DNA from: Azotosporobacter soli
Lineage (GTDB): Bacteria > Bacillota > Negativicutes > SG130
Assembly (NCBI RefSeq): GCF_030542965.1
Contig: NZ_JAUAOA010000030.1
Span: 1 to 35,402, forward strand
DNA: 35,402 nt
Reading direction: 5' to 3'
Shown one piece after another: positions 9,534-21,029 of this stretch; the first letter of the stretch is position 1; every line of letters starts with the position of its first letter. Position numbers and translations under genes: made by a program. Below the pieces are notes generated by a model. That model was given only the letters and a program-made list of their open reading frames with translations, had not been told where the DNA came from and searched no databases.

Positions 9534-9633
9534 AAGGAGTGATGCTATGCAGCGAACAGCAAACGATATCTAAATTATTTGAAGCCCTAGGATGCATGGA
9601 AGCTACTTTTTAAAAATCAAGGAGGAATTTATT
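9534..9633 (+). promoter_or_regulatory. Flagellin mRNA leader with GGA motifs and a tiny leader ORF
   Basis: Five GGA triplets start at 9536, 9590, 9598, 9621 and 9624. The last two form the flagellin ribosome site. GGA is the core of CsrA binding sites, and csrA is encoded 1.6 kb upstream. AAGGAG at 9534-9539 also lies 7 nt before an ATG (9547) that opens a nine-codon frame, MQRTANDI and stop (9571-9573). Another frame from 9542 runs 23 residues, but its start is too near the ribosome site. CsrA binding and translation of the leader frame are inferred. Confidence 0.5.
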
Positions 9634-11331
9634 ATGTCGTTAGTAATCAGCACAAACATGTCCGCATTAAACACCACCAATCAGTTGAATAAGAACAGCT
9701 CGCTCATGAATTCATCGCTGCAAAAACTCTCTTCCGGTTATTCCATCAATAGTTCGGCCGATAACGCGGCTGGCCTGTCGATCTCCGAAAAAATGCGTGC
9801 GCAAATTCAAGGCCTCGACCAAGCCAGCAGCAACTCCCAAGACGCAATTTCGCTAGCACAAACAGCAGACGGCGCTCTGGATGAAACAACTTCTATTCTT
9901 AAACGCATGCGCGAATTGGCGGTACAGGCATCCACCGATTCATTGACGGATGATGACCGCTCGAACATCCAAGATGAAACGGATCAGTTGCGCCAGGAAC
10001 TTGATCGTATCTCCAACGATACCGAATACAATACCAAAAAACTCCTCAACGGCGACAGCGGCGCATCAACTGCCGTTTCAGGAACCAATTCCGCCGCAAT
10101 CGATACGGCGAACACAGTCGCCGGTAACAATACCGCTTCCGGCGTCTATACCGTAAACTACACTTCGGTAGCTACTGAAGCGACTACCGGCTTGGCCACG
10201 GCCTCCACTTCCGGTATTACCGCCGCAACAAGTACCATTTCCAGTTCGCTGACCGGCAGCTTTAGCATCAATGGAACCACCATCAACATCGAAAGCAGCG
10301 ATACGATCAGCGGGATCATGGAAAAAATCAATGATGAAACTTCCACGACCGGCGTAACCGCTACTTTGGATACGACGACAGCCGGCAACTATTTCATCAA
10401 GTTGACCGACAGCACTTATGGCAGCAGTTCCAGCATCACGTTAAAAGGTTCGAATGATCTGCTCGGAGCATCCGGCTTATTTAACGCCACTTCCAGCACC
10501 ACAGCCACAAGCGTCACGACGTACGGTACCAATGCCACCGGTACGATTAACGGTGCTACAGCAGTCGGTGAAGGAAACACGCTGAAAGCCTTCGATCTCA
10601 CCGTTTCCGGTGACGATGCAGCGCTCACTACTTTAGGCGGCACGGCAACCGCAACCGCAAATACCGCTTTTGACGCATTGGTAACAGCCATGAGCGCTTC
10701 CACCGGCGCCACTTCGGCCAGCGCAGACAAGTCAGCCGCCGCCGATTACAATACCGCGGTCGCTGGCGGCAGCGCCACTGCCATTGCCAAAGCCAAAGAA
10801 GCTTTGATTAAGCAGGCGGCAGCATCCGATGATGCGACAACCACAACTGACCTTACAGCCTATAAAGCGGCAACCGCAACGACTTTGGCCACCGCTGACG
10901 TAACGGTAGACGCATCCACTGCACTGACGTTCCAGGTAGGCGCAAACACCCACCAAAGCATGAGCCTCTCGATCGGCGACATGGATGCTAATGCCTTAGG
11001 CGTCGCTGGAACCGATTCCGACTCCGGTATTGATCTGACGACCGTTGATGCCGCATCCAGCGCAATCAGCGTAATCGATAAAGCCATCAAGAAAGTTTCC
11101 TCTGAACGCTCCAATCTCGGCGCGGTTCAAAACAGTCTGGAAAGCAACATTAATAATCTGGATACCGAAAGTGAAAATCTGACCTCTGCCGAATCCAACA
11201 TCCGCGATACGGATATGGCTTCCGAAATGTCTACCTACACAAAATTGAGCGTCATCACGCAAGCCGCCACCGCGATGCTGGCCAAAGCCAACCAGCAACC
11301 GCAGCAAGTTCTGACTTTGCTGCAAGGCTAA
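9634..11331 (+). CDS. fliC: Flagellin, the filament subunit
   Basis: Flagellin is exported through the flagellar core and polymerises into the filament. The 565-residue protein has conserved ends: N-terminal D0/D1 (about 1-140; KLSSGYSINSSADNAAGLSISEKM, DEXTDQLRQELDRISNDTEYNTKKLL region) and C-terminal D1/D0 (about 470-565, ending in ANQQPQQVLTLLQG). The centre is variable and rich in Thr, Ser and Ala. It holds a flagellin-IN-like segment (about 208-272) and an alanine-rich helical part (about 335-420). There is no cysteine. The ATG at 9634 is chosen because AAGGAGG lies 8 nt upstream; the frame is open 14 codons further. The gene stands alone with its own promoter and terminator. It is larger than Bacillus Hag (about 300 residues). 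Confidence 0.95.
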   Translation: MSLVISTNMSALNTTNQLNKNSSLMNSSLQKLSSGYSINSSADNAAGLSISEKMRAQIQGLDQASSNSQDAISLAQTADGALDETTSILKRMRELAVQASTDSLTDDDRSNIQDETDQLRQELDRISNDTEYNTKKLLNGDSGASTAVSGTNSAAIDTANTVAGNNTASGVYTVNYTSVATEATTGLATASTSGITAATSTISSSLTGSFSINGTTINIESSDTISGIMEKINDETSTTGVTATLDTTTAGNYFIKLTDSTYGSSSSITLKGSNDLLGASGLFNATSSTTATSVTTYGTNATGTINGATAVGEGNTLKAFDLTVSGDDAALTTLGGTATATANTAFDALVTAMSASTGATSASADKSAAADYNTAVAGGSATAIAKAKEALIKQAAASDDATTTTDLTAYKAATATTLATADVTVDASTALTFQVGANTHQSMSLSIGDMDANALGVAGTDSDSGIDLTTVDAASSAISVIDKAIKKVSSERSNLGAVQNSLESNINNLDTESENLTSAESNIRDTDMASEMSTYTKLSVITQAATAMLAKANQQPQQVLTLLQG

Positions 11332-11341
11332 TCTTAATTTT

Positions 11342-11377
11342 AAAATGCACTGTACGCATGGCGTACAGTGCATTTTT
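11342..11377 (+). terminator. Terminator of flagellin
   Basis: AAAATGCACTGTACGC and GCGTACAGTGCATTTT pair perfectly (16 bp) across ATG, followed by more Ts. It starts 10 bp past the flagellin stop. It matches the IS1182 left-end hairpin at 31 of 36 positions. Confidence 0.93.
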
Positions 11378-11425
11378 CTTTTGCTTGATTTCAAATTCTC
11401 GGCTCCATTTTTCAAAATATAAATC

Positions 11426-11465
11426 GAAGGGTGAAGCAACATTCCTCAATGTTGCTTCACCCTTC
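11426..11465. terminator. Long palindrome after fliS
   Basis: An 18-bp perfect stem (11426-11443 with 11448-11465) closes a 4-nt loop, CCTC. It lies 32 bp beyond the fliS stop, so it is probably the terminator of the flagellar operon on the minus strand. The T-run after it is poor on that strand. Confidence 0.7.
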
Positions 11466-11497
11466 CACGTCTTTTTGCATGAATACTGCATTCTATT

Positions 11498-11890
11498 CTA
11501 CTTTCCTACAACCGCTTTTTTACGCACTTGTTTCATTGCAGAAACCCAAGCTTCACGAAACTCAGTCAACAGTTTCTTCGCTTCCGCCAACTTATTCCGA
11601 TCTTTTTTCATATTGCCTTGAATCAAGCAATGCAAGATGTACTCATCGACAGCAAGCCAGTTTTTAGAAATTTCTTGCTTACGATCCGTCGTCAGCATAA
11701 ACTCACGCATGATATTTTGCGCCCGCAAATTCGCTTTATGCGCCTTTTCTACATCCTGCTTTTCAATCGCAACCATACTTTCCGTAATAAATCGAATAGC
11801 GCCGTCATAGAGCATTAACGTCAATTCTTCCGGCGACGCTGTCATAATCTGTTGTCTTTTATATGCATTCGCAGTATTTGCCGCATACAT
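11498..11890 (-). CDS. fliS: Flagellin export chaperone FliS
   Basis: FliS binds the C-terminal end of flagellin in the cytoplasm and keeps it unpolymerised until export. The 130-residue, all-helical protein starts MYAANTANAYKRQQIMTASPEELTLMLYDGAIRFI, the family hallmark. Length is normal. The ATG at 11890 has GAGGAGG 7 nt upstream; the ATG at 11896 is too close. It is the last gene of the flagellar operon and converges on flagellin, its client. Confidence 0.94.
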   Translation of the reverse strand: MYAANTANAYKRQQIMTASPEELTLMLYDGAIRFITESMVAIEKQDVEKAHKANLRAQNIMREFMLTTDRKQEISKNWLAVDEYILHCLIQGNMKKDRNKLAEAKKLLTEFREAWVSAMKQVRKKAVVGK

Positions 11891-11924
11891 AACCATTCCT
11901 CCTCTACGCTATTACTTTTTACCG

Positions 11925-12344
11925 TTATCCCTTTTCATTGATGAGGCGTCCCCGTGTCAGCACGGCCCACGACGTAACATATTGAGCGCGAACCTGTCTC
12001 TTCACGTTACGGCTTTTCAGCCGTCCGGACACGCTTGCTTTTTCAAGCGCTGCTTTTTGTAAAAGGTGACTGCTTGCCTGCATCAATCGAAGCTGTTTTT
12101 TTTCTATTTCCTCCTGCAGCAAAGCTGCCTCGCTTGTTCTTCGTTCCTCGCCGCAGTCTGCCAAGCGTTCTTCATTCTCCGTCAGTTCTAAAAACAATCG
12201 ATCATACTCTTTTAGCAGCCGAGGCAATCCTTTGATCGTTTCTTGTTGAATCGCCCAGCACTGCGTCGCCAGGTTCGCGGCAAGAGCCTCCAATATCTCT
12301 ATTTTATGCCGCAACAATCCAACTTTTACTTCCGCCTGCGCCAT
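11925..12344 (-). CDS. Coiled-coil flagellar protein, FliT/FlgN-like by position
   Basis: This 139-residue protein is nearly all helical, with heptad-like stretches (LLRHKIEILEALAANLATQ, LLKEYDRLFLELTENEERLADCGEERRTSEAALLQEEIEKKQLRLMQ). The C-terminus is very basic (SGRLKSRNVKRQVRAQYV). It lies between fliD and fliS, where many bacteria have fliT, an export chaperone for FliD. Size and helical content fit FliT or FlgN, but no clear signature is seen, so the name is not assigned. It starts 20 bp after fliD. No signal peptide or membrane segment. Confidence 0.6.
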   Translation of the reverse strand: MAQAEVKVGLLRHKIEILEALAANLATQCWAIQQETIKGLPRLLKEYDRLFLELTENEERLADCGEERRTSEAALLQEEIEKKQLRLMQASSHLLQKAALEKASVSGRLKSRNVKRQVRAQYVTSWAVLTRGRLINEKG

Positions 12345-12364
12345 ACCGACTCACCATCCCAACT

Positions 12365-14347
12365 CTAGCTACTGGAGGTGTACGAAGATAACGCAGAAAG
12401 CTTGGTATTCATCGTACTGATATACGTCTCCAGCGCAGAATATTTTGTATATAACTTATCTTCATAATCATCTAGGCGGTCACTTTCATCATCAATCTGC
12501 TCGCTATATTTATCAATTAATGTCGTCAGATTATTATCCGTATCCGAAGAATCCTCCGTCGTCCCGGCGATCTCAATCAGCAGCCCTTTGTTGCCTGAAC
12601 TGTCTGCAACGGTAGATATGTTCTTTGCAATGATGTCATAAAAGCGATAGGCAATGCCTTCTTCTTTATAACGCGTGCTAAGCTGGCTCGCATTTAAACT
12701 GCGAACAATCCCGGTCGTCCCCAGCGAAGCCGTTTTGCCGGAGGAAGTGGTGTATGTGGATGATGCCTGCTGCGTGAATAATTTCATCACCGCTTCCGGA
12801 TTACTCGCAATCGCCTCTTCTAACGTCGATTCGTCAATCGACAGTTTTCCGTTTTCTGCATAATCATCGCTTGCGGTGATCCCAATGCTGGAAAGACTGC
12901 TTGATTGCCCCGAAATCGAATCCGCTAATGCATTGCGCAGATTGCTCAAAAAACTGGTCAGCGTCGAATCGCCCTCCAGCAACCCGACTTTTGCTTTTGT
13001 TTCCCAACTGGTAATTTCATCATCGGTCATGTCTGCTTTTTGGTCATCCGTAAGAGCCGGATAATCAGAGTCCGCCGTTTCATCCAGCGCGTCATTGATC
13101 GTTTCCATCAAGGTATTGTAGTCATCGACGAAATCCTTGAGCAGATCGTAAACGCCGCTGCTGTCTTGCGTGACGCTGACTGTATCTGCGGTTGAAGAGC
13201 AAGAGGAAGACGTCGTCGTTGTGTCGGTAGTGGTTGTTTTATTTAATGTGTAGGTAACGCCATCAACAGTCACTACATTCGTACTTCGGACATAGCGTTG
13301 ATCATCAATTACGACAATCGAGTCTTTTCCGTCCGTTTGCGTCGTCAACAGCGCCGATATGAAATTGCTGCTTCCGCTGTCAGCGGCAACCAACGAACTT
13401 CCCGCCCCCGTATCATCGGCAGTCAATGCCAGCTTTCCCGTCGTAGAATTGTAAGTCATCGTAGCTCCCGCTGATGACTTATTGATTTCGGACATCATAT
13501 CCGACAAGGTTTCGTCTTCATCAAATGAAAAAGAAACGCCATTGATTGTCATATTAAGATATCCATTATCGAATGTTAATGCATTGCCCGAATTCAATTG
13601 ATCCGCAATGCTGGACAAAGTATCCGAAGTGCTCAACCGATTGGAAAGAACGCCGCTGCTTGTGAATCCAAGATCCGTCAGGCCGCTGTCGCTCGACGAC
13701 GCGGCACTGACCGAAATCGCCTGAACGCCCGAATCTGCGGATGTAATCGTCAAATAGCCTGAAGAGTTTTCGCTGACAGTCACCTTGCCTTCCCCAACAG
13801 CATCGTCGATCGCGTCTTGCAGCCCATCGACATCCTGGGCTGTCATATTATCCAAATCCACCGTATAATCCGTACCGTCAAGCGTCAAAACAAAACTTTC
13901 ACCGCTGAGACTGCTGTAATCCGGCGTTGTCGCTCCTTGGACATCTTTTGTGATACCGCTTCCGCTGAGACTGGCATTTGTAGCCAACTGACACACTTCA
14001 ACCGTATGACTCCCGGCCTTGGCAGTGCTGGACGCCGTTACCGCAACCGCCGACGAAGTGCTGGTCGCAGCATATTGCAAAAAATTCTTTGAGCTTAACA
14101 GACTCGTCGATGAAGACACATTAAAATATTTGCTGCTAAAATCCTGAATATCCGTAATCATCGTACGGTACGCAGTTTGCTTCCATTCCGCCGTTTGCTC
14201 TTTTTGCGTAAGCTTATTGTATTTCTTCGCCCGTTCTGCAAGCATCAACTGATCGACAATCCCGTCCACATCCAAGCCGGACGCCAAACCTGTGATCCGC
14301 GTCGTTCCATTAACCGTGGTCGTAGATATACTGCTGCTTGAAGACAT
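12365..14347 (-). CDS. fliD: Flagellar filament cap protein (hook-associated protein 2)
   Basis: FliD caps the growing filament and helps fold flagellin at the tip. The N-terminus (TRITGLASGLDVDGIVDQLMLAERAKKYNKLTQKEQTAEWKQTAYRTM) is the family signature. The C-terminus (EQIDDESDRLDDYEDKLYTKYSALETYISTMNTKLSALSSY) forms the usual coiled coil. A hook-IN-like segment (LNMTINGVSFSFDEDETLSDMMSEINKSS) lies near residues 260-290. At 660 residues it is longer than most homologues (about 450-500), with extra Ser/Thr-rich central domains. GAGGAGG lies 7 nt before the ATG. It starts 14 bp after flgL. Confidence 0.93.
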   Translation of the reverse strand: MSSSSSISTTTVNGTTRITGLASGLDVDGIVDQLMLAERAKKYNKLTQKEQTAEWKQTAYRTMITDIQDFSSKYFNVSSSTSLLSSKNFLQYAATSTSSAVAVTASSTAKAGSHTVEVCQLATNASLSGSGITKDVQGATTPDYSSLSGESFVLTLDGTDYTVDLDNMTAQDVDGLQDAIDDAVGEGKVTVSENSSGYLTITSADSGVQAISVSAASSSDSGLTDLGFTSSGVLSNRLSTSDTLSSIADQLNSGNALTFDNGYLNMTINGVSFSFDEDETLSDMMSEINKSSAGATMTYNSTTGKLALTADDTGAGSSLVAADSGSSNFISALLTTQTDGKDSIVVIDDQRYVRSTNVVTVDGVTYTLNKTTTTDTTTTSSSCSSTADTVSVTQDSSGVYDLLKDFVDDYNTLMETINDALDETADSDYPALTDDQKADMTDDEITSWETKAKVGLLEGDSTLTSFLSNLRNALADSISGQSSSLSSIGITASDDYAENGKLSIDESTLEEAIASNPEAVMKLFTQQASSTYTTSSGKTASLGTTGIVRSLNASQLSTRYKEEGIAYRFYDIIAKNISTVADSSGNKGLLIEIAGTTEDSSDTDNNLTTLIDKYSEQIDDESDRLDDYEDKLYTKYSALETYISTMNTKLSALSSYTSSS

Positions 14348-14361
14348 TTTCTCGCCTCCTC

Positions 14362-16062
14362 TTAGGTAATATAATCAATTAACGTTTTCGAAATGACCTT
14401 CGCCCCCACTGACAAGGACGCCTCATAGCAATATTCCGCACTGCTCACTTCCGTTGCAGCGGTAGCCAAATCCACCTGTTCGTTATCGGTCATATATCCC
14501 GTATATGCCGTATATGCATCATCCAATTTATCCGACACCGCATCGACTTCATCCATACGTGCGCCAAGCGTGGATTGCGCAAACGTCAAACGATCCAAGT
14601 CCGCTGAAAATTCATCGATCAAATCGCTGATTGACATGGTCTGGGTACTGACCGTCACCGTTCCTGTCGAATCGACGCTGGCCGTTTTATAAGTTGTGTC
14701 ACCTTGAAGCGCCAGCAACAACTTTGAAAAAGTGTCGAACAGATTGTTCTCGGCACCCTCGCCCACTGCATCTTGGCCTTCAATATTCACCGTGACTTGC
14801 GTACTAAATCCGATATTATAATTAATGCTCTCCGCTGCTGTTCCATACGTGGAAACCGCGGAAGATAACGTATCCGAAAGAGTCTGCTCCGCCGTCGAAG
14901 CATCCGCTACGGTCGTTGTCCCGCCATACGTCGTGACGGCATCTGCCAATGAATCCGACACGCTCTTTGCCGCTTTCGCCGCCGCTGCGAGCGACGAACT
15001 CGACGGATCCGCAGTAGCAGCTGCGGCTGCGGTATTATAATCGGCCAATGCCGTAGCAGCCGCAGCCGTCAATGTCGTCGTACCGCCGTATGCCGTAATT
15101 GCCGTCGTTAACGAGGCTGCAGACGTCTTCGTCTTGGTCGCCAGCGTCGCCAATGCCGTTGTTCCCTTCCCGTCGCTCACACAATCCGCCAGAACATCCT
15201 TTACCGTTTCCATCGCCGTGCTTGCCGAACTTAGCATTGCCGCTCCGCCATAGGTAGAAGCCGCCGTATTCAAGGTGTCATAGATGCTTTGGGCCGCCGT
15301 TGCGGCATCCGTCAGCGTCGTATTCGTTGCATCGGCAGCGGCCGCAGTCGCAGCTGCCTCATACGCCGCTTTCGCACTCGCCGTTGCGGTCGACAACGTT
15401 GTGGTTCCTCCATACGTCGTAATGGCCGTCGTAATATTTTCATACGCCGTTTTGGCCTTTGCCGCTGTAGTATTAATCGTAGCGTTGCTTTCGTACGCCT
15501 CATCTTCATTCATACTGTAGAACGATATGAGATCCGAGTCGGAAACATCCGCCGAAACAACGCCGCCCAGACTCAAATAAGATCCTTTGTACGTAATCGT
15601 ATCGCCGATATCGCTGGAAACCGTTTTATACGGCTCTTCACTTGTGCTGTAGCCGCCGAAAATATAGCGTCCGGCATAGCTTGTATTCATAATTGAAACG
15701 GCTTGATCCCGCAGTGTTTCAATCGCATCTGCAATTGTCGCCAAATCCGATTCACTATTGGTATCGTTTGCCGCTTTGGTTGTCAGCTCCTTCGCACTCG
15801 CTATCACGTCACTCAGCTGACTTAGCGCATCATCCGTCGCTTTCTGCCAATTCCCTGCAGCATCCGCAGCATCCTGTGATTGTTTGATTTGTGCAACATA
15901 GCTGCGATAACTTACAGCGCGGGTTGCCACGACCGGATCATCGGAAGCCAATTGAATTTTTTCTTGCGAAGAGGCGGCCTCGTTGGCTTTGGCCAATCGA
16001 TTGGCGGCTTTCGTAATATTTCGCAGGGCGTTGTCTGAAATCATGCTGTTGGTAATCCGCAC
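14362..16062 (-). CDS. flgL: Hook-filament junction protein FlgL with a large repeat insertion
   Basis: FlgL joins the hook to the filament. From a GTG start at 16062 the protein reads MRITNSMISDNALRNITKAANRL, the classic N-terminus; AGGAGG lies 7 nt upstream. A TTG at 16068 would add two residues but fits less well. It has 566 residues, against about 300 in most homologues. The N-terminal part (1-185, including SIMNTSYAGRYIFGGY) and the C-terminal part (about 415-566) are normal. Between them is an Ala/Thr-rich insertion (about 190-405) of eight 27-residue units with recurring YGG turns. The insertion should lie in the outward-facing D2/D3 region. It starts 11 bp after flgK. Confidence 0.92.
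   Translation of the reverse strand: MRITNSMISDNALRNITKAANRLAKANEAASSQEKIQLASDDPVVATRAVSYRSYVAQIKQSQDAADAAGNWQKATDDALSQLSDVIASAKELTTKAANDTNSESDLATIADAIETLRDQAVSIMNTSYAGRYIFGGYSTSEEPYKTVSSDIGDTITYKGSYLSLGGVVSADVSDSDLISFYSMNEDEAYESNATINTTAAKAKTAYENITTAITTYGGTTTLSTATASAKAAYEAAATAAAADATNTTLTDAATAAQSIYDTLNTAASTYGGAAMLSSASTAMETVKDVLADCVSDGKGTTALATLATKTKTSAASLTTAITAYGGTTTLTAAAATALADYNTAAAAATADPSSSSLAAAAKAAKSVSDSLADAVTTYGGTTTVADASTAEQTLSDTLSSAVSTYGTAAESINYNIGFSTQVTVNIEGQDAVGEGAENNLFDTFSKLLLALQGDTTYKTASVDSTGTVTVSTQTMSISDLIDEFSADLDRLTFAQSTLGARMDEVDAVSDKLDDAYTAYTGYMTDNEQVDLATAATEVSSAEYCYEASLSVGAKVISKTLIDYIT
14848..15495 (-). repeat. Eight degenerate 27-codon repeats inside flgL
   Basis: In the protein, tyrosines of TYGG or TYGT motifs fall at 217, 271, 325, 379 and 406 (steps of 54, 54, 54, 27). 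Leu, Ile or Val falls every 27 residues from 196 to 385. Two unit types alternate: one starts YGGTTTL, the other starts with Asp or Gly-rich turns such as DATNTTL or DPSSSSL. That gives 648 bp, 8 x 81 bp. DNA identity between units is low, so this is an old protein-level repeat. Confidence 0.8.
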
Positions 16063-16073
16063 ATGCAACCCTC

Positions 16074-17585
16074 CTAATCATTGACCATATTAATGGTGCT
16101 ATCATAGATCTGGCTCCAGGTCTTCACCGCTGCCGCCGATGCATCATACGCCGATTGATATTTCGTCAGGTTAACCGTTTCCTCATCGCTTGAAACGCCT
16201 GACACCGATGAACGACTGGTATCAATGTAAGTAACAAGCGTACTTTTACGGTCATATTGAGTTTGCGTATACGAACTGCTCGTACTTAGATCCGCAATGA
16301 TATTATTGTAGCTCTCCGTCACGGTTGAACTTCCTGAAATATCAAGATCCGTACAAATACTGATAATGTCATTGAGATTTTCGTTATTTCCCTCCTCGCC
16401 ACTGATGGAGGCACAGGCGATCAGGTCGGCGTCGTCCTGCACGTCTTTGCTTAGAGAAATATTGGCTGCCGTAATGTTTTTATAGACGGCCTGCGTATCC
16501 GTTCCGCTCGCCATCAAATCCTCCGATGATAAGTCTTCATAGGAAAAAAAACGAATTCCGGTTGTCTCTGCATCATCAATCCCTGCCCCGTCAGCATGCC
16601 CGCTGTACGAAGTCGCTCCTACCGTGATCCCTTCATTAAATGCCTGTGCGAATGACCGTGCAAATTCATTGAGCTGATTGATATAGTAGGGAATCCCTTT
16701 ACTTTCATCCGAAGAGCCATCCCGTATTTCAAGATATCCGCTAATTGAGCCGCTATCTCCTACTGCGAAATCTTCACCGGAATCAGACCAACGAATCCCA
16801 TACATGCCATACTGCGCGCTTGTAGTATCGGTAACCGTGTAGCACTCTAACGCGTTTGCCTCTTTGCCGCTCACCAACGTACCGTTCTTGGTATTAATGG
16901 TAAACGATCCGTTCTCTTCGCTAACTACGCTAATGCCTACCAAGCCGGAAAGTTTATCGACCAACGCATCTCTTTGATCCTCCAGTTCATTGGTAGATCC
17001 GCCGACTGCTTTTGCCAGCGAAATTTGCCCGTTCAAATCGGCAATCCCCGCTGCATAATCATTGATCTGATCTACTGCCGTACTGACTTCCGTGTTCAAA
17101 TCACTGCGCAATTGCGTCAATTCCGTCGACGCATTATTGAGCGTCGAACAAAATGATTCTGCCGCTCCCAGCACCGTTTCACGTACGGAACTATCACTGC
17201 TATCCGTGGATAAGGTGCTCAGCGCCGTCGTGAAAGTATTTAATGCGGTACTGATGTAATCGGTATCGCTGGCGCCGAAATAGCTCTCAATTTCAGTCAG
17301 GTAGGTCGATTTTGCTTCCAGTGCGCTGGAAGCGCTGTTCTCTTGCCAGTATTTCTGATCCAAACGAAAACTTCGTACACGGTCAACGGAAGTCACTTCC
17401 GTTCCGCCGCCAACCAGGCTGCTGCTATAAACAGCCGCCGGACCTATGGATGTCTGGGTTGCTAATTGGCGCGAATATCCGGTCGTATCAATATTGCTCA
17501 TGTTATTTGTCGTCACATTTAAGCCGACTTGACTGGCAGCTAATCCTCGCGCTGCAATGCTAAGTCCCATAAATGTCGATGCCAT
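16074..17585 (-). CDS. flgK: Hook-associated protein 1
   Basis: FlgK is the first junction protein laid on the hook. The 503-residue protein starts with the flagellar rod/hook motif LAASQVGLNVTTNNMSNIDTTGYSRQ, close to the ANNIANxNTxGYSRQ pattern. The middle has the FlgK pattern NDYAAGIADLNGQISLAKAVGGSTNELEDQRDALVDKLSGLVGI. The end (GVSSDEETVNLTKYQSAYDASAAAVKTWSQIYDSTINMV) is the C-terminal helix domain. GGAGG lies 7 nt before the ATG. A second FlgK-like gene lies directly upstream. Of the two, this one keeps the more canonical N-terminal motif. Confidence 0.9.
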   Translation of the reverse strand: MASTFMGLSIAARGLAASQVGLNVTTNNMSNIDTTGYSRQLATQTSIGPAAVYSSSLVGGGTEVTSVDRVRSFRLDQKYWQENSASSALEAKSTYLTEIESYFGASDTDYISTALNTFTTALSTLSTDSSDSSVRETVLGAAESFCSTLNNASTELTQLRSDLNTEVSTAVDQINDYAAGIADLNGQISLAKAVGGSTNELEDQRDALVDKLSGLVGISVVSEENGSFTINTKNGTLVSGKEANALECYTVTDTTSAQYGMYGIRWSDSGEDFAVGDSGSISGYLEIRDGSSDESKGIPYYINQLNEFARSFAQAFNEGITVGATSYSGHADGAGIDDAETTGIRFFSYEDLSSEDLMASGTDTQAVYKNITAANISLSKDVQDDADLIACASISGEEGNNENLNDIISICTDLDISGSSTVTESYNNIIADLSTSSSYTQTQYDRKSTLVTYIDTSRSSVSGVSSDEETVNLTKYQSAYDASAAAVKTWSQIYDSTINMVND

Positions 17586-17597
17586 ATTATTCCCTCC

Positions 17598-19094
17598 TTA
17601 CCCGATGTCTTCAATCAATCCCGCCAAAAGACTGTCCACCGTGCTCATGACCCGGGCACTCGCAGCATACGCATTCTGAAGTTTGATCATATTCGCGGTT
17701 TCTTCATCTACAGAAATTCCTGAAATGCTCTGCCGTTGGTTAGCAACGCTTTCCGTCAGTGCTTCTTGCGTTTTATAGTTGTTGCTGGCTTCATCTCCCG
17801 TTGTCCCGATCCAACTTGTCAGCGCTGCGTAAAATCCGGTAATATCGTTTGCAATCCCGCCGTAGCTGTAACACTCTTCACTGGCCAGCTCTAAGATTTG
17901 GTTCGCAATTGTATTGTCCCCATCATCACTGCTGGATGCGGTAACCAGTTTTTCCGGATCGTCCACCAGGTTCGGATTCACCTTTATGTTTGTGATGCTT
18001 AAGGGTTTACTGGAATCAACGACCGTAAAAAACGCCTCTCCCGCTTCGCCCTCGCCGTCCACACCCGATGTCGCCAACGTATTGATTTTGTCCGCCAATG
18101 TCGTAATCAACACATTGAGCGCCTGCCGCATGTTCGTAATCGAACTGCTGGCATCCGTCGAAAAATCATACGGCAAGCTGGCGGAATCAATATCTTCATA
18201 ACCACTTTGATCCGCATCTTCCAGATACGCGGCAATGCTGCCGCTGTTAACCGCCACCTTGCAATCAATGTCTGCCCGTTTCACTGTTAACGGATCACTT
18301 GTTGTTCCCGTTCCGTCTACCTCTAACGCATACGAATCACGTCCATCCACAATCGTAATGCTTCCAATGGATACTTGAATCGTATTATTCATTTGCGTTA
18401 CATTGATATTCGCCAACGATGACATTTCGTCCAGCAAGGCGTCTCTTTGGTCTCGCAAATAAGTCGCTTCACTGCCATTTGCTTCCGCACTGCTGATCTG
18501 TCCATTCAAATCGGCAACTTGCGACGCAAGGTCATTGAGGCTGTCGACGCCCTCCTTCACGCCGCTTACAGACTCTTGTTGCAGTTGTTGAAGCTGGCTG
18601 TCGATGCTCGTAAGCATCTCTACCAAGGATGTTCCCGCAGAAATAACGCTGGTACGGCTGCTTTCCGTACTCGAGTCAACCGACACCGTTTCCCATGCGG
18701 AAAAAAAATCAGTGATTTCCTGCTGCAATCCAACCGAATCCGACGTTGATTCCGAATCTGTCGCATCCGAACTGGCTTCATACTCCGTCAGCACCTGATC
18801 AAGATACTGCAAATTACCGCTTTTCACTGAATAATAGGTGGAACTGGAGTTTTGCGTTCGATAAACCTTGTCCATTAACGATTCTCTCGCCCGGGTAATG
18901 GAAGCCAAACTGACCCCGTCACCGGTAAAAGAGCCTGACTTTTGCACGGTATCCATTTCCACGCTTGCCGTTCGAACCCGCGAGGCGCCTGCCGTATTTA
19001 CATTTGCCAAATTGCTGCTGGTGGTGGCCAAAGCCGTCTGATTCACATACAACCCCGTATACGCGATGCTATATGTACTAAACGTTGAGCTCAT
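17598..19094 (-). CDS. Second FlgK-family hook-associated protein
   Basis: This 498-residue paralogue shares the FlgK layout: N-terminal YVNQTALATTSSNLANVNTAGASR, middle LNDLASQVADLNGQISSAEANGSEATYLRDQRDALLDEMSSLANI, and C-terminal GISVDEETANMIKLQNAYAASARVMSTVDSLLAGLIEDIG. The usual GYSRQ after the Asn motif is replaced by GASRV. It could be the true FlgK with the downstream gene a variant, or both may be used, for example as two layers of the junction. Only 12 bp separates the two genes. GGAGGAG precedes the start. It begins 19 bp after flgE. Confidence 0.88.
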   Translation of the reverse strand: MSSTFSTYSIAYTGLYVNQTALATTSSNLANVNTAGASRVRTASVEMDTVQKSGSFTGDGVSLASITRARESLMDKVYRTQNSSSTYYSVKSGNLQYLDQVLTEYEASSDATDSESTSDSVGLQQEITDFFSAWETVSVDSSTESSRTSVISAGTSLVEMLTSIDSQLQQLQQESVSGVKEGVDSLNDLASQVADLNGQISSAEANGSEATYLRDQRDALLDEMSSLANINVTQMNNTIQVSIGSITIVDGRDSYALEVDGTGTTSDPLTVKRADIDCKVAVNSGSIAAYLEDADQSGYEDIDSASLPYDFSTDASSSITNMRQALNVLITTLADKINTLATSGVDGEGEAGEAFFTVVDSSKPLSITNIKVNPNLVDDPEKLVTASSSDDGDNTIANQILELASEECYSYGGIANDITGFYAALTSWIGTTGDEASNNYKTQEALTESVANQRQSISGISVDEETANMIKLQNAYAASARVMSTVDSLLAGLIEDIG

Positions 19095-19113
19095 AAGCGC
19101 TCCTCCTCAAACC

Positions 19114-20469
19114 CTAGCTTTTCATATTGATCAGCGATTGCAGCATTTCATCCGCAGTAGAGATTACTTTTGTATTGGCCTGATACGCGCGTTGCGCAAT
19201 CATCAGATTCGTAAATTCTGAAGCCAAGCTCACGTTGGACATCTCTAAGGTGCCGGAGCTTAATGAACCGGTACCGCCGCTGCCGGCGGTCGTGTAAACG
19301 GGATCGCCGGAGTTATTGCTGCTGGAATACAGACTGCTCCCGGTCTTCTCCAGACCCGAAGCGTTACTGAACGTTGCCAATGCCAATTGCGCAATCGTCT
19401 TCTTTTGATCATTGCTGTAACTCACCACGATCGATCCGTCTGTCGATACGGACCAACTTTCCATCGTTCCTGCCGCATACCCATCCTGTGTGAAAGAAAG
19501 GCTGCTGGCATCCGACGAACTGGTCGTGCTGGCATTCGTGCTCGTCAATCCGCTAAAATCGAGTGTTGCGCTGAAAGCTGCCGTAGAGCCGTCAGTCGGC
19601 GTAATCGTCAGAGAAGAAGACGTCGTAAAAGTGTCCGTCCCCACCGTTCCGGAAACAAGATTTCCATCCGAATCAAAAGCGATATATCCGCTGGACGGAC
19701 TGATCGTCGCGCTATCGCCGCTGACTTCATAGTACCAACTGGTCGTATTAGTCGTAGCATCCACATAGCATTTTTTGAAATTGAGTGTTGCCGTATAGTC
19801 ATTGCCTTGTGAATCATACACTTTTACCGTTGCCGTCTTATCAAACTCGGTCGGGGTCGTACCAATGCTCGTCAATGCCGTTGCCGTCGTAGCGGCCGTA
19901 TCGCCGGAGTCCAAATAATTCCCGCTTGTGCTTGCGCTATTCAAACTGATCGCCGTCGTCGTTTTCGCCGGCATGCTGGTATCGGAATATACGTTGATTT
20001 TCACTGGCGTGTTATTCGTCGTGACCGTCGTGTTGCCGGAAGCATCCGTCGTACTGAGCCAGCCGCAAACCTCATAACCATTAATATTGAGATTTCCATC
20101 ATCATCTACGCTCAGTTCTCCATTGCGGGTATACAGATAACTGCCTGAACTTCCTTGTACCACCAAATATCCGTCGCCGCCAATGGATACGTCCGTTTCA
20201 ACGCCTGTCGTTTCCGTGCTCCCCACTGTCGTATTCGTATTCGTCGCCGCTACGCTTACGCCAGTACCAATCTGCTTTGCATTTGTTCCGCCGCTTGTTG
20301 AGCTAGATCCCGAAGCAGAACTAAGCGTTTGACTCAACAGATCACTAAAACTGACGGATTGCGACTTATACCCGGTTGTGTTTACATTGGAAATATTGTT
20401 TGAAATTACATCCAGAGCCGTCTGTTGCCCTTTTAATCCCGACACTGCGGTATACAACGATGCCATCAT
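19114..20469 (-). CDS. flgE: Flagellar hook protein
   Basis: FlgE polymerises into the flexible hook. The N-terminus (MASLYTAVSGLKGQQTALDVISNNISNVNTTGYKSQSVSFSDLLSQTL) and C-terminus (GTLEMSNVSLASEFTNLMIAQRAYQANTKVISTADEMLQSLINMKS) match FlgE and the wider rod/hook family. At 451 residues it fits FlgE rather than rod proteins FlgF or FlgG (about 260). GAGGGGG lies 9 nt before the first of two adjacent ATGs, which decides the start. It starts 55 bp after flgD, its assembly cap. Confidence 0.92.
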   Translation of the reverse strand: MMASLYTAVSGLKGQQTALDVISNNISNVNTTGYKSQSVSFSDLLSQTLSSASGSSSTSGGTNAKQIGTGVSVAATNTNTTVGSTETTGVETDVSIGGDGYLVVQGSSGSYLYTRNGELSVDDDGNLNINGYEVCGWLSTTDASGNTTVTTNNTPVKINVYSDTSMPAKTTTAISLNSASTSGNYLDSGDTAATTATALTSIGTTPTEFDKTATVKVYDSQGNDYTATLNFKKCYVDATTNTTSWYYEVSGDSATISPSSGYIAFDSDGNLVSGTVGTDTFTTSSSLTITPTDGSTAAFSATLDFSGLTSTNASTTSSSDASSLSFTQDGYAAGTMESWSVSTDGSIVVSYSNDQKKTIAQLALATFSNASGLEKTGSSLYSSSNNSGDPVYTTAGSGGTGSLSSGTLEMSNVSLASEFTNLMIAQRAYQANTKVISTADEMLQSLINMKS

Positions 20470-20524
20470 AGGAAAATTCCCCCTCGTTATTTTTTATTGA
20501 CGCTAGCCGATTTATACGTTGTTT

Positions 20525-20935
20525 TTACGATGTTGCTCCGACCACCGATATGGAATCTAAGCTGACATTGGTTCCGTCAATATTTACATATGTAGTGCCG
20601 TTGGAAATAGTTACGTAACCCACAGTACCTTGTGCCGTCGTTGAATCTCCCGAAGAATCCGTTGTCGAATATGTCACGGTTTGTCCAATTAAGCTATATG
20701 CATTTCCGCTGTTTACCGCCGAATAAATGTTTGACAGTTGTGACAGTGAGCTAATCGTAGCCATTTGACTTACATATTCCGTTGCACTGACAGGATCTGA
20801 CGGATCCTGATACTGTAATTCTGCCGCTAAAATTTGAAGGAACGAATCTGTATCTAATGTAGTCGAACCCGTAGAACTCGTTGTGCTTGACGAAGTAGTC
20901 GAGGAAGTCGATGTGGTTGATGATATTGTACTCAT
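20525..20935 (-). CDS. flgD: Hook assembly cap protein
   Basis: FlgD sits at the tip of the growing hook and guides FlgE assembly. The 136-residue protein has a Ser/Thr-rich start (about 1-28) followed by the core DTDSFLQILAAELQYQDPSDPVSATEYVSQMATISSLSQL. The remaining 70 residues form a short beta-rich domain. The length matches short FlgD forms of Gram-positives (about 140). The ATG at 20935 is set by AGGAGG about 7 nt upstream; the frame is open 16 codons further. It is the first visible gene of the operon; no fliK or flgN is seen upstream, where a terminator and an IS remnant lie instead. Confidence 0.9.
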   Translation of the reverse strand: MSTISSTTSTSSTTSSSTTSSTGSTTLDTDSFLQILAAELQYQDPSDPVSATEYVSQMATISSLSQLSNIYSAVNSGNAYSLIGQTVTYSTTDSSGDSTTAQGTVGYVTISNGTTYVNIDGTNVSLDSISVVGATS

Positions 20936-21029
20936 TGTTATCCCTCCTGAAATTGTCGGTATTTCTTTCCCCAAGTATCGCAAAACACTATTTACTACTG
21001 ATTAATAAAAGTCTAAATACAAAATAAAT

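Follow-up and report, generated by a model that had tools for sequence, protein, structure and literature searches.

A tandem array of eight 27-residue units in the D2 region of an accessory FlgL from Azotosporobacter soli

The hook-filament junction protein FlgL (HAP3) is known with a variable D2 region from Salmonella, Xanthomonas, Legionella and Campylobacter. Solved hook-filament junctions contain a ring of 11 FlgL subunits below the filament, with D2 exposed (PMC12221982). This region differs between species: the FlgL of X. campestris carries an extra domain between its D1 halves and the D2 of Xanthomonas FlgL is a beta-sandwich (PMC6155364), and that of C. jejuni is bulky (PMC12221982). 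Among flagellins, the giant ones contain tandemly repeated domain-extension regions (PMC6248924). We analyzed a stretch of 35,402 nucleotides from Azotosporobacter soli (hereafter the window) encoding a FlgL whose D0/D1 ends match those of the family and which, like the X. campestris protein, has an extra domain between the D1 halves. In contrast to the Xanthomonas beta-sandwich, however, the insert within D2 is here an array of 27-residue units, each predicted to form a helix, and the C. jejuni D2 is not reported in PMC12221982 as an array of this kind. Giant flagellins resemble the window FlgL in having a tandem duplication within the exposed central part of an axial protein with the flagellin fold, and in both cases one must ask how repeats in tandem fit into an out-and-back fold. 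In their case the repeat is a whole domain that thickens the filament and the carrier is the filament flagellin (PMC6248924), whereas here the repeat is a single 27-residue helix at the junction only, the carrier is FlgL and the flagellin is encoded by a separate gene (9592-11331, forward strand, 579 residues, Pfam Flagellin_N and Flagellin_C). Although variation of FlgL D2 and tandem repeats of giant flagellins are already known, the array itself seems undescribed; our literature search found no account of repeats in FlgL, nor of accessory axial gene sets like the one around flgL in Negativicutes.

The flgL gene lies at 14362-16062 on the reverse strand and encodes 566 residues from a GTG at 16062. 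This is the likely start, with AGGAGG seven bases upstream, and it reproduces the residue numbering of an earlier note on this DNA in which the repeats had been proposed; a TTG at 16068 is an alternative possible start. The product was identified by the family model TIGR02550 (flagellar hook-associated protein 3; 3.5e-53, 181.3 bits against a cut-off of 127.2), and both flagellin-like helical halves are present. The N-terminal D0/D1 half (residues 4-140, 15643-16053, reverse strand) matches Pfam Flagellin_N at 9.6e-19. The C-terminal D1/D0 half (residues 489-563, 14374-14598, reverse strand) gives a Flagellin_C match of 0.0065, under the cut-off of 23 bits, but Flagellin_C was recognized in each of the eight aligned relatives (at best 2.5e-6) and the TIGR02550 match in the genome search also spans this half. 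The predicted core of the window FlgL gave its best structural alignment with solved FlgL (5yti, Z 11.8, 183 residues aligned at 4.1 A).

Between these halves, eight 27-residue units could be delimited as the earlier note had claimed; in a Leu-first register they occupy residues 196-411 (14830-15477, reverse strand). The span given previously, 14848-15495, had the right length of 216 residues but was offset by six. With numbering from the GTG, the Tyr of the YG turns falls exactly at 217, 271, 325, 379 and 406, and the series I/L/L/L/L/L/L/V exactly at 196, 223, 250, 277, 304, 331, 358 and 385, as had been read. All on the reverse strand, unit 1 (INTTAAKAKTAYENITTAITTYGGTTT, residues 196-222, 15397-15477), unit 2 (LSTATASAKAAYEAAATAAAADATNTT, 223-249, 15316-15396), unit 3 (LTDAATAAQSIYDTLNTAASTYGGAAM, 250-276, 15235-15315), unit 6 (LTAAAATALADYNTAAAAATADPSSSS, 331-357, 14992-15072) and unit 7 (LAAAAKAAKSVSDSLADAVTTYGGTTT, 358-384, 14911-14991) were found both by a self-trained profile and by a unit profile built only from FlgL of other genomes. 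This second profile matched half of unit 5 (LATLATKTKTSAASLTTAITAYGGTTT, 304-330, 15073-15153), found unit 8 weakly (VADASTAEQTLSDTLSSAVSTYGTAAE, 385-411, 14830-14910) and did not find the degenerate unit 4 (LSSASTAMETVKDVLADCVSDGKGTTA, 277-303, 15154-15234), which is supported by its spacing, the self-trained profile and a predicted helix. With the relatives' profile, only units 1, 3, 6 and 7 score above the best of 1000 shuffled arrays. The periodicity itself was significant at 27 and 54 in a self-alignment with shuffled controls, the check that the earlier note had suggested: BLOSUM62 self-similarity over residues 185-415 in TTG-start numbering (183-413 from the GTG) peaked at offsets of 27 (z 8.6), 54 (7.1), 81 (6.9) and 108 (10.6); for shuffled sequences the best z had a 99th percentile of 3.9.

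The proposal that two unit types alternate in a 54-residue super-repeat had to be abandoned. Alternation would make even unit offsets outscore odd ones, and no significant excess was found when the unit order was permuted (p = 0.23). A four-unit (108-residue) relation was favored in the same permutation test (p = 0.019), and relatives with six units are mostly ordered A-Y-Y-A-Y-end and not A-Y-A-Y. The array is old and shows no recent expansion, since Tandem Repeats Finder detected no DNA-level tandem repeat in it and its units are only 32-60% identical in DNA. No second occurrence was found in the same genome with the array profile.

Units from eight proteins, 48 in all, mostly share Leu at position 1 (46 units), Ala at positions 8 (44) and 18 (45), and either Leu or Ala at position 15 (45). 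The array is rich in Ala, Thr and Ser (62% together; A 29%, T 23%) with few charged residues, and the turns between units are of a TYGGTTT or an ADPTNTT type. The conserved positions fall roughly on one helix face, with a marginal hydrophobic moment at 95-105 degrees (p = 0.06). AlphaFold2 predicts for each unit a helix of about 21-24 residues followed by a short turn, both in full-length FlgL and for the array alone, in agreement with the one helix per unit anticipated in the earlier note. In full FlgL these predicted helices span residues 196-217, 223-243, 248-271, 277-299, 304-325, 331-351, 356-379 and 385-406, with an array pLDDT mostly of 70-91 that falls to about 50 mid-array, near residues 290-310. 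Of the antiparallel helical spike that had been envisaged, the helices are thus predicted, but their antiparallel packing is unsupported: pTM was 0.35 for full FlgL and 0.53 for the array alone, so that the models do not fix tertiary packing, confidence dips mid-array and no good fold match was obtained. Using the array model (pTM 0.53), a Foldseek search of PDB structures gave no match at E under 3, VIA gave no Z above 5.8 and viral structure models gave no confident match; PDB and Pfam sequence searches found no convincing relative of the array. Designed helical repeat proteins and up-down helical bundles are likewise built from helix-turn units that do not vary in length and pack through small residues, but they have no sequence relation to the array and the structural matches are weak (best Z 5.8 over 61 residues).

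The insertion site was mapped by comparison with a 70%-identical FlgL from an uncultured Selenomonadales MAG (L043/L012) that has no array. This protein reads YESSGAQNINYNIGF where the window FlgL has YES, about 216 residues and then ESINYNIGF, giving clean insertion bounds at YES (192) and INYNIGF (413). The array therefore sits between the two flagellin-like D1 halves, that is, in the D2 region, and FlgL can do without it, since L043 has none. Its location in the exposed D2 region, as put forward in the earlier note, is well supported by this comparison and by the published junction structures. We can only infer the exact insertion loop, because the beta strands of the D2 base beside the array were modeled at pLDDT below 50.

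The array profile detected the array in 12 of 380 Negativicutes genomes, which represent Sporomusa as well as several other families, and gave no match in the Bacillota genomes sampled outside Negativicutes. Searching named genomes with the window protein alone gave no match; Sporomusa was found when an alignment was used instead. All carriers are FlgL proteins that belong to an additional hook-junction-cap-filament gene set, with the array at the same site as in the window FlgL. Four units are present in L013 and L044, six in L010, L011, L014 and L042 (Sporomusa malonica), eight in the window, S. ovata, S. silvacetica and Sporomusa sp. KB1, and eleven in MAG CTSoil_079 (L040). Between relatives, copy number mostly changes by whole units. 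We considered that unit number might necessarily be even, with the array ending where it began; this fits 4, 6 and 8 but is broken by the 11 units of CTSoil_079. In two Sporomusa species (L041 and L045, units 5-6 of the array) one unit has just 20 residues owing to a seven-residue deletion that spans a turn, which shows that the 27-residue length is not strictly invariant.

The window flgL is a paralogue within an accessory axial gene set (11498-20983, reverse strand) that comprises, in transcription order, flgD, flgE, flgK (copy 2), flgK (copy 1), flgL, fliD, a gene for a 139-residue protein and fliS, with the flagellin gene adjoining. flgL adjoins flgK and lies upstream of fliD and fliS, and Sporomusa as well as other relatives keep the order flgE-flgK-flgK-flgL-fliD-unknown-fliS. 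The tandem flgK genes (16074-17585 and 17598-19094, reverse strand) are an old pair, since their products are about 30% identical to each other and each is about 54-67% identical to its own counterpart in Sporomusa and other relatives; they could form a two-layer FlgK junction. The 139-residue charged protein (11925-12344, reverse strand, between fliD and fliS) is 33-39% conserved in relatives, has no Pfam and no convincing NCBIfam match and is perhaps an export chaperone. Taking window 9592-20983 together with contigs C2, C7 and C30 of the genome (G000), the genes for hook, junction, cap and filament are present in a second complete set. The genome encodes another FlgL and FlgK on contig C2 but a single FlhA, and 12 relatives likewise have one FlhA with three to seven FlgK matches; the accessory set therefore looks like an additional flagellar exterior sharing one export gate. 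Other proteins of the set vary as well. In relatives, FlgE, encoded upstream of flgL (about 1-1880 of loci L039-L045), appears to carry after residue about 275 one to three beta-like repeats of about 70 residues, with the pattern SNVSVGT..GTYTVTVTGTSG..YTVTL..DGT and copy number judged by eye; the window FlgE (19114-20469) has no such inserts. FliD of L044 (6421-8604) and L045 (6723-8909) matches the window FliD in segments that overlap or are interrupted, which suggests that the middle domains of this FliD contain an internal duplication or an insertion.

In a FlgL tree built with the array left out of the alignment, array carriers and the arrayless L043 form one clade with 100/100 support, to which the array is restricted. 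L043 is nested among the carriers, and the clade requires two changes, in the simplest case a single gain of the array and a single loss. For collinear orthologous arrays, dN/dS was 0.12-0.46, compared with 0.12-0.26 in the flanks, and in some pairs the array value reached up to 1.8 times that of the flanks. These ratios indicate that the array sequence is constrained, under purifying selection that is somewhat relaxed, and the unit consensus is retained over at least five families.

These observations bear on whether the array has any specific job. An exposed D2 loop might tolerate any foldable insert, units then being gained and lost by drift in a near-neutral expansion. The arrayless L043, with flanks 70% identical and a position among carriers, fits this view, as do copy numbers of 4-11 without fixed parity and the variation of loops in FlgE and FliD from this gene set. 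The dN/dS values and the consensus shared by at least five families show, on the other hand, selection for a folded array, even if such selection could be solely against misfolding; on balance we regard near-neutral expansion as possible but rather unlikely. Alternatively, the helices might be displayed as an adhesive array that binds a surface, a partner cell or a protein, with copy number tuning reach or affinity. This would agree with the exposed location, the variable copy number and the repeated inserts of FlgE in relatives, as if outer surfaces had diversified. It appears doubtful given units so rich in Ala, Thr and Ser with so little charge, conservation that lies in the likely packing face and the turns with no evident binding patch, an expected number of merely about 11 copies per flagellum and no match to an adhesin family. 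That an Ala/Thr-rich low-complexity sequence only seems periodic, as its strong compositional bias and large HMMER bias corrections might suggest, is refuted by composition-preserving shuffles, which never came near the observed periodicity, and by the orthologues, with their almost invariant Leu at unit position 1 and whole-unit copy-number changes in most comparisons.

We favor, with a probability of roughly 0.55, the reading in which the array is a helical-repeat domain in the solvent-facing D2 of FlgL that forms an outward-facing collar at the hook-filament junction and serves in bracing or shielding. Each unit would be one Ala/Thr-rich helix with a short turn, and neighboring helices would probably pack via the conserved Leu-Ala-Ala face (positions 1, 4/5, 8, 15 and 18). 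By analogy with solved junctions the array would be exposed and, assuming as many FlgL subunits as in the Salmonella junction, namely 11, would build an 11-fold helical collar around the hook-filament joint of the flagellum made by the accessory set. Such a collar might brace or shield the junction sterically instead of binding a partner. Against this reading count the low pTM of the array model, the poorly modeled D2 base, the marginal hydrophobic face, the array pairs that evolve faster than their flanks and a copy number that, ranging from 0 to 11, calls for no set geometry.

More broadly, and quite speculatively, in some Negativicutes the accessory set may build an alternative flagellum exterior via the shared export gate, with two FlgK layers and a FlgL ring bearing a size-adjustable helical collar. 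If this were true, a junction with two FlgK layers and an adjustable FlgL collar would be an architecture not previously described. Independently of this, the array shows that the exposed domain of a low-copy junction protein can grow or shrink by single-helix units. The natural copy-number series of 0, 4, 6, 8 and 11 offers a test of what FlgL D2 does, and the finding points to genomes that combine one flagellar export gate with several hook-junction-filament sets and a conserved tandem flgK pair.
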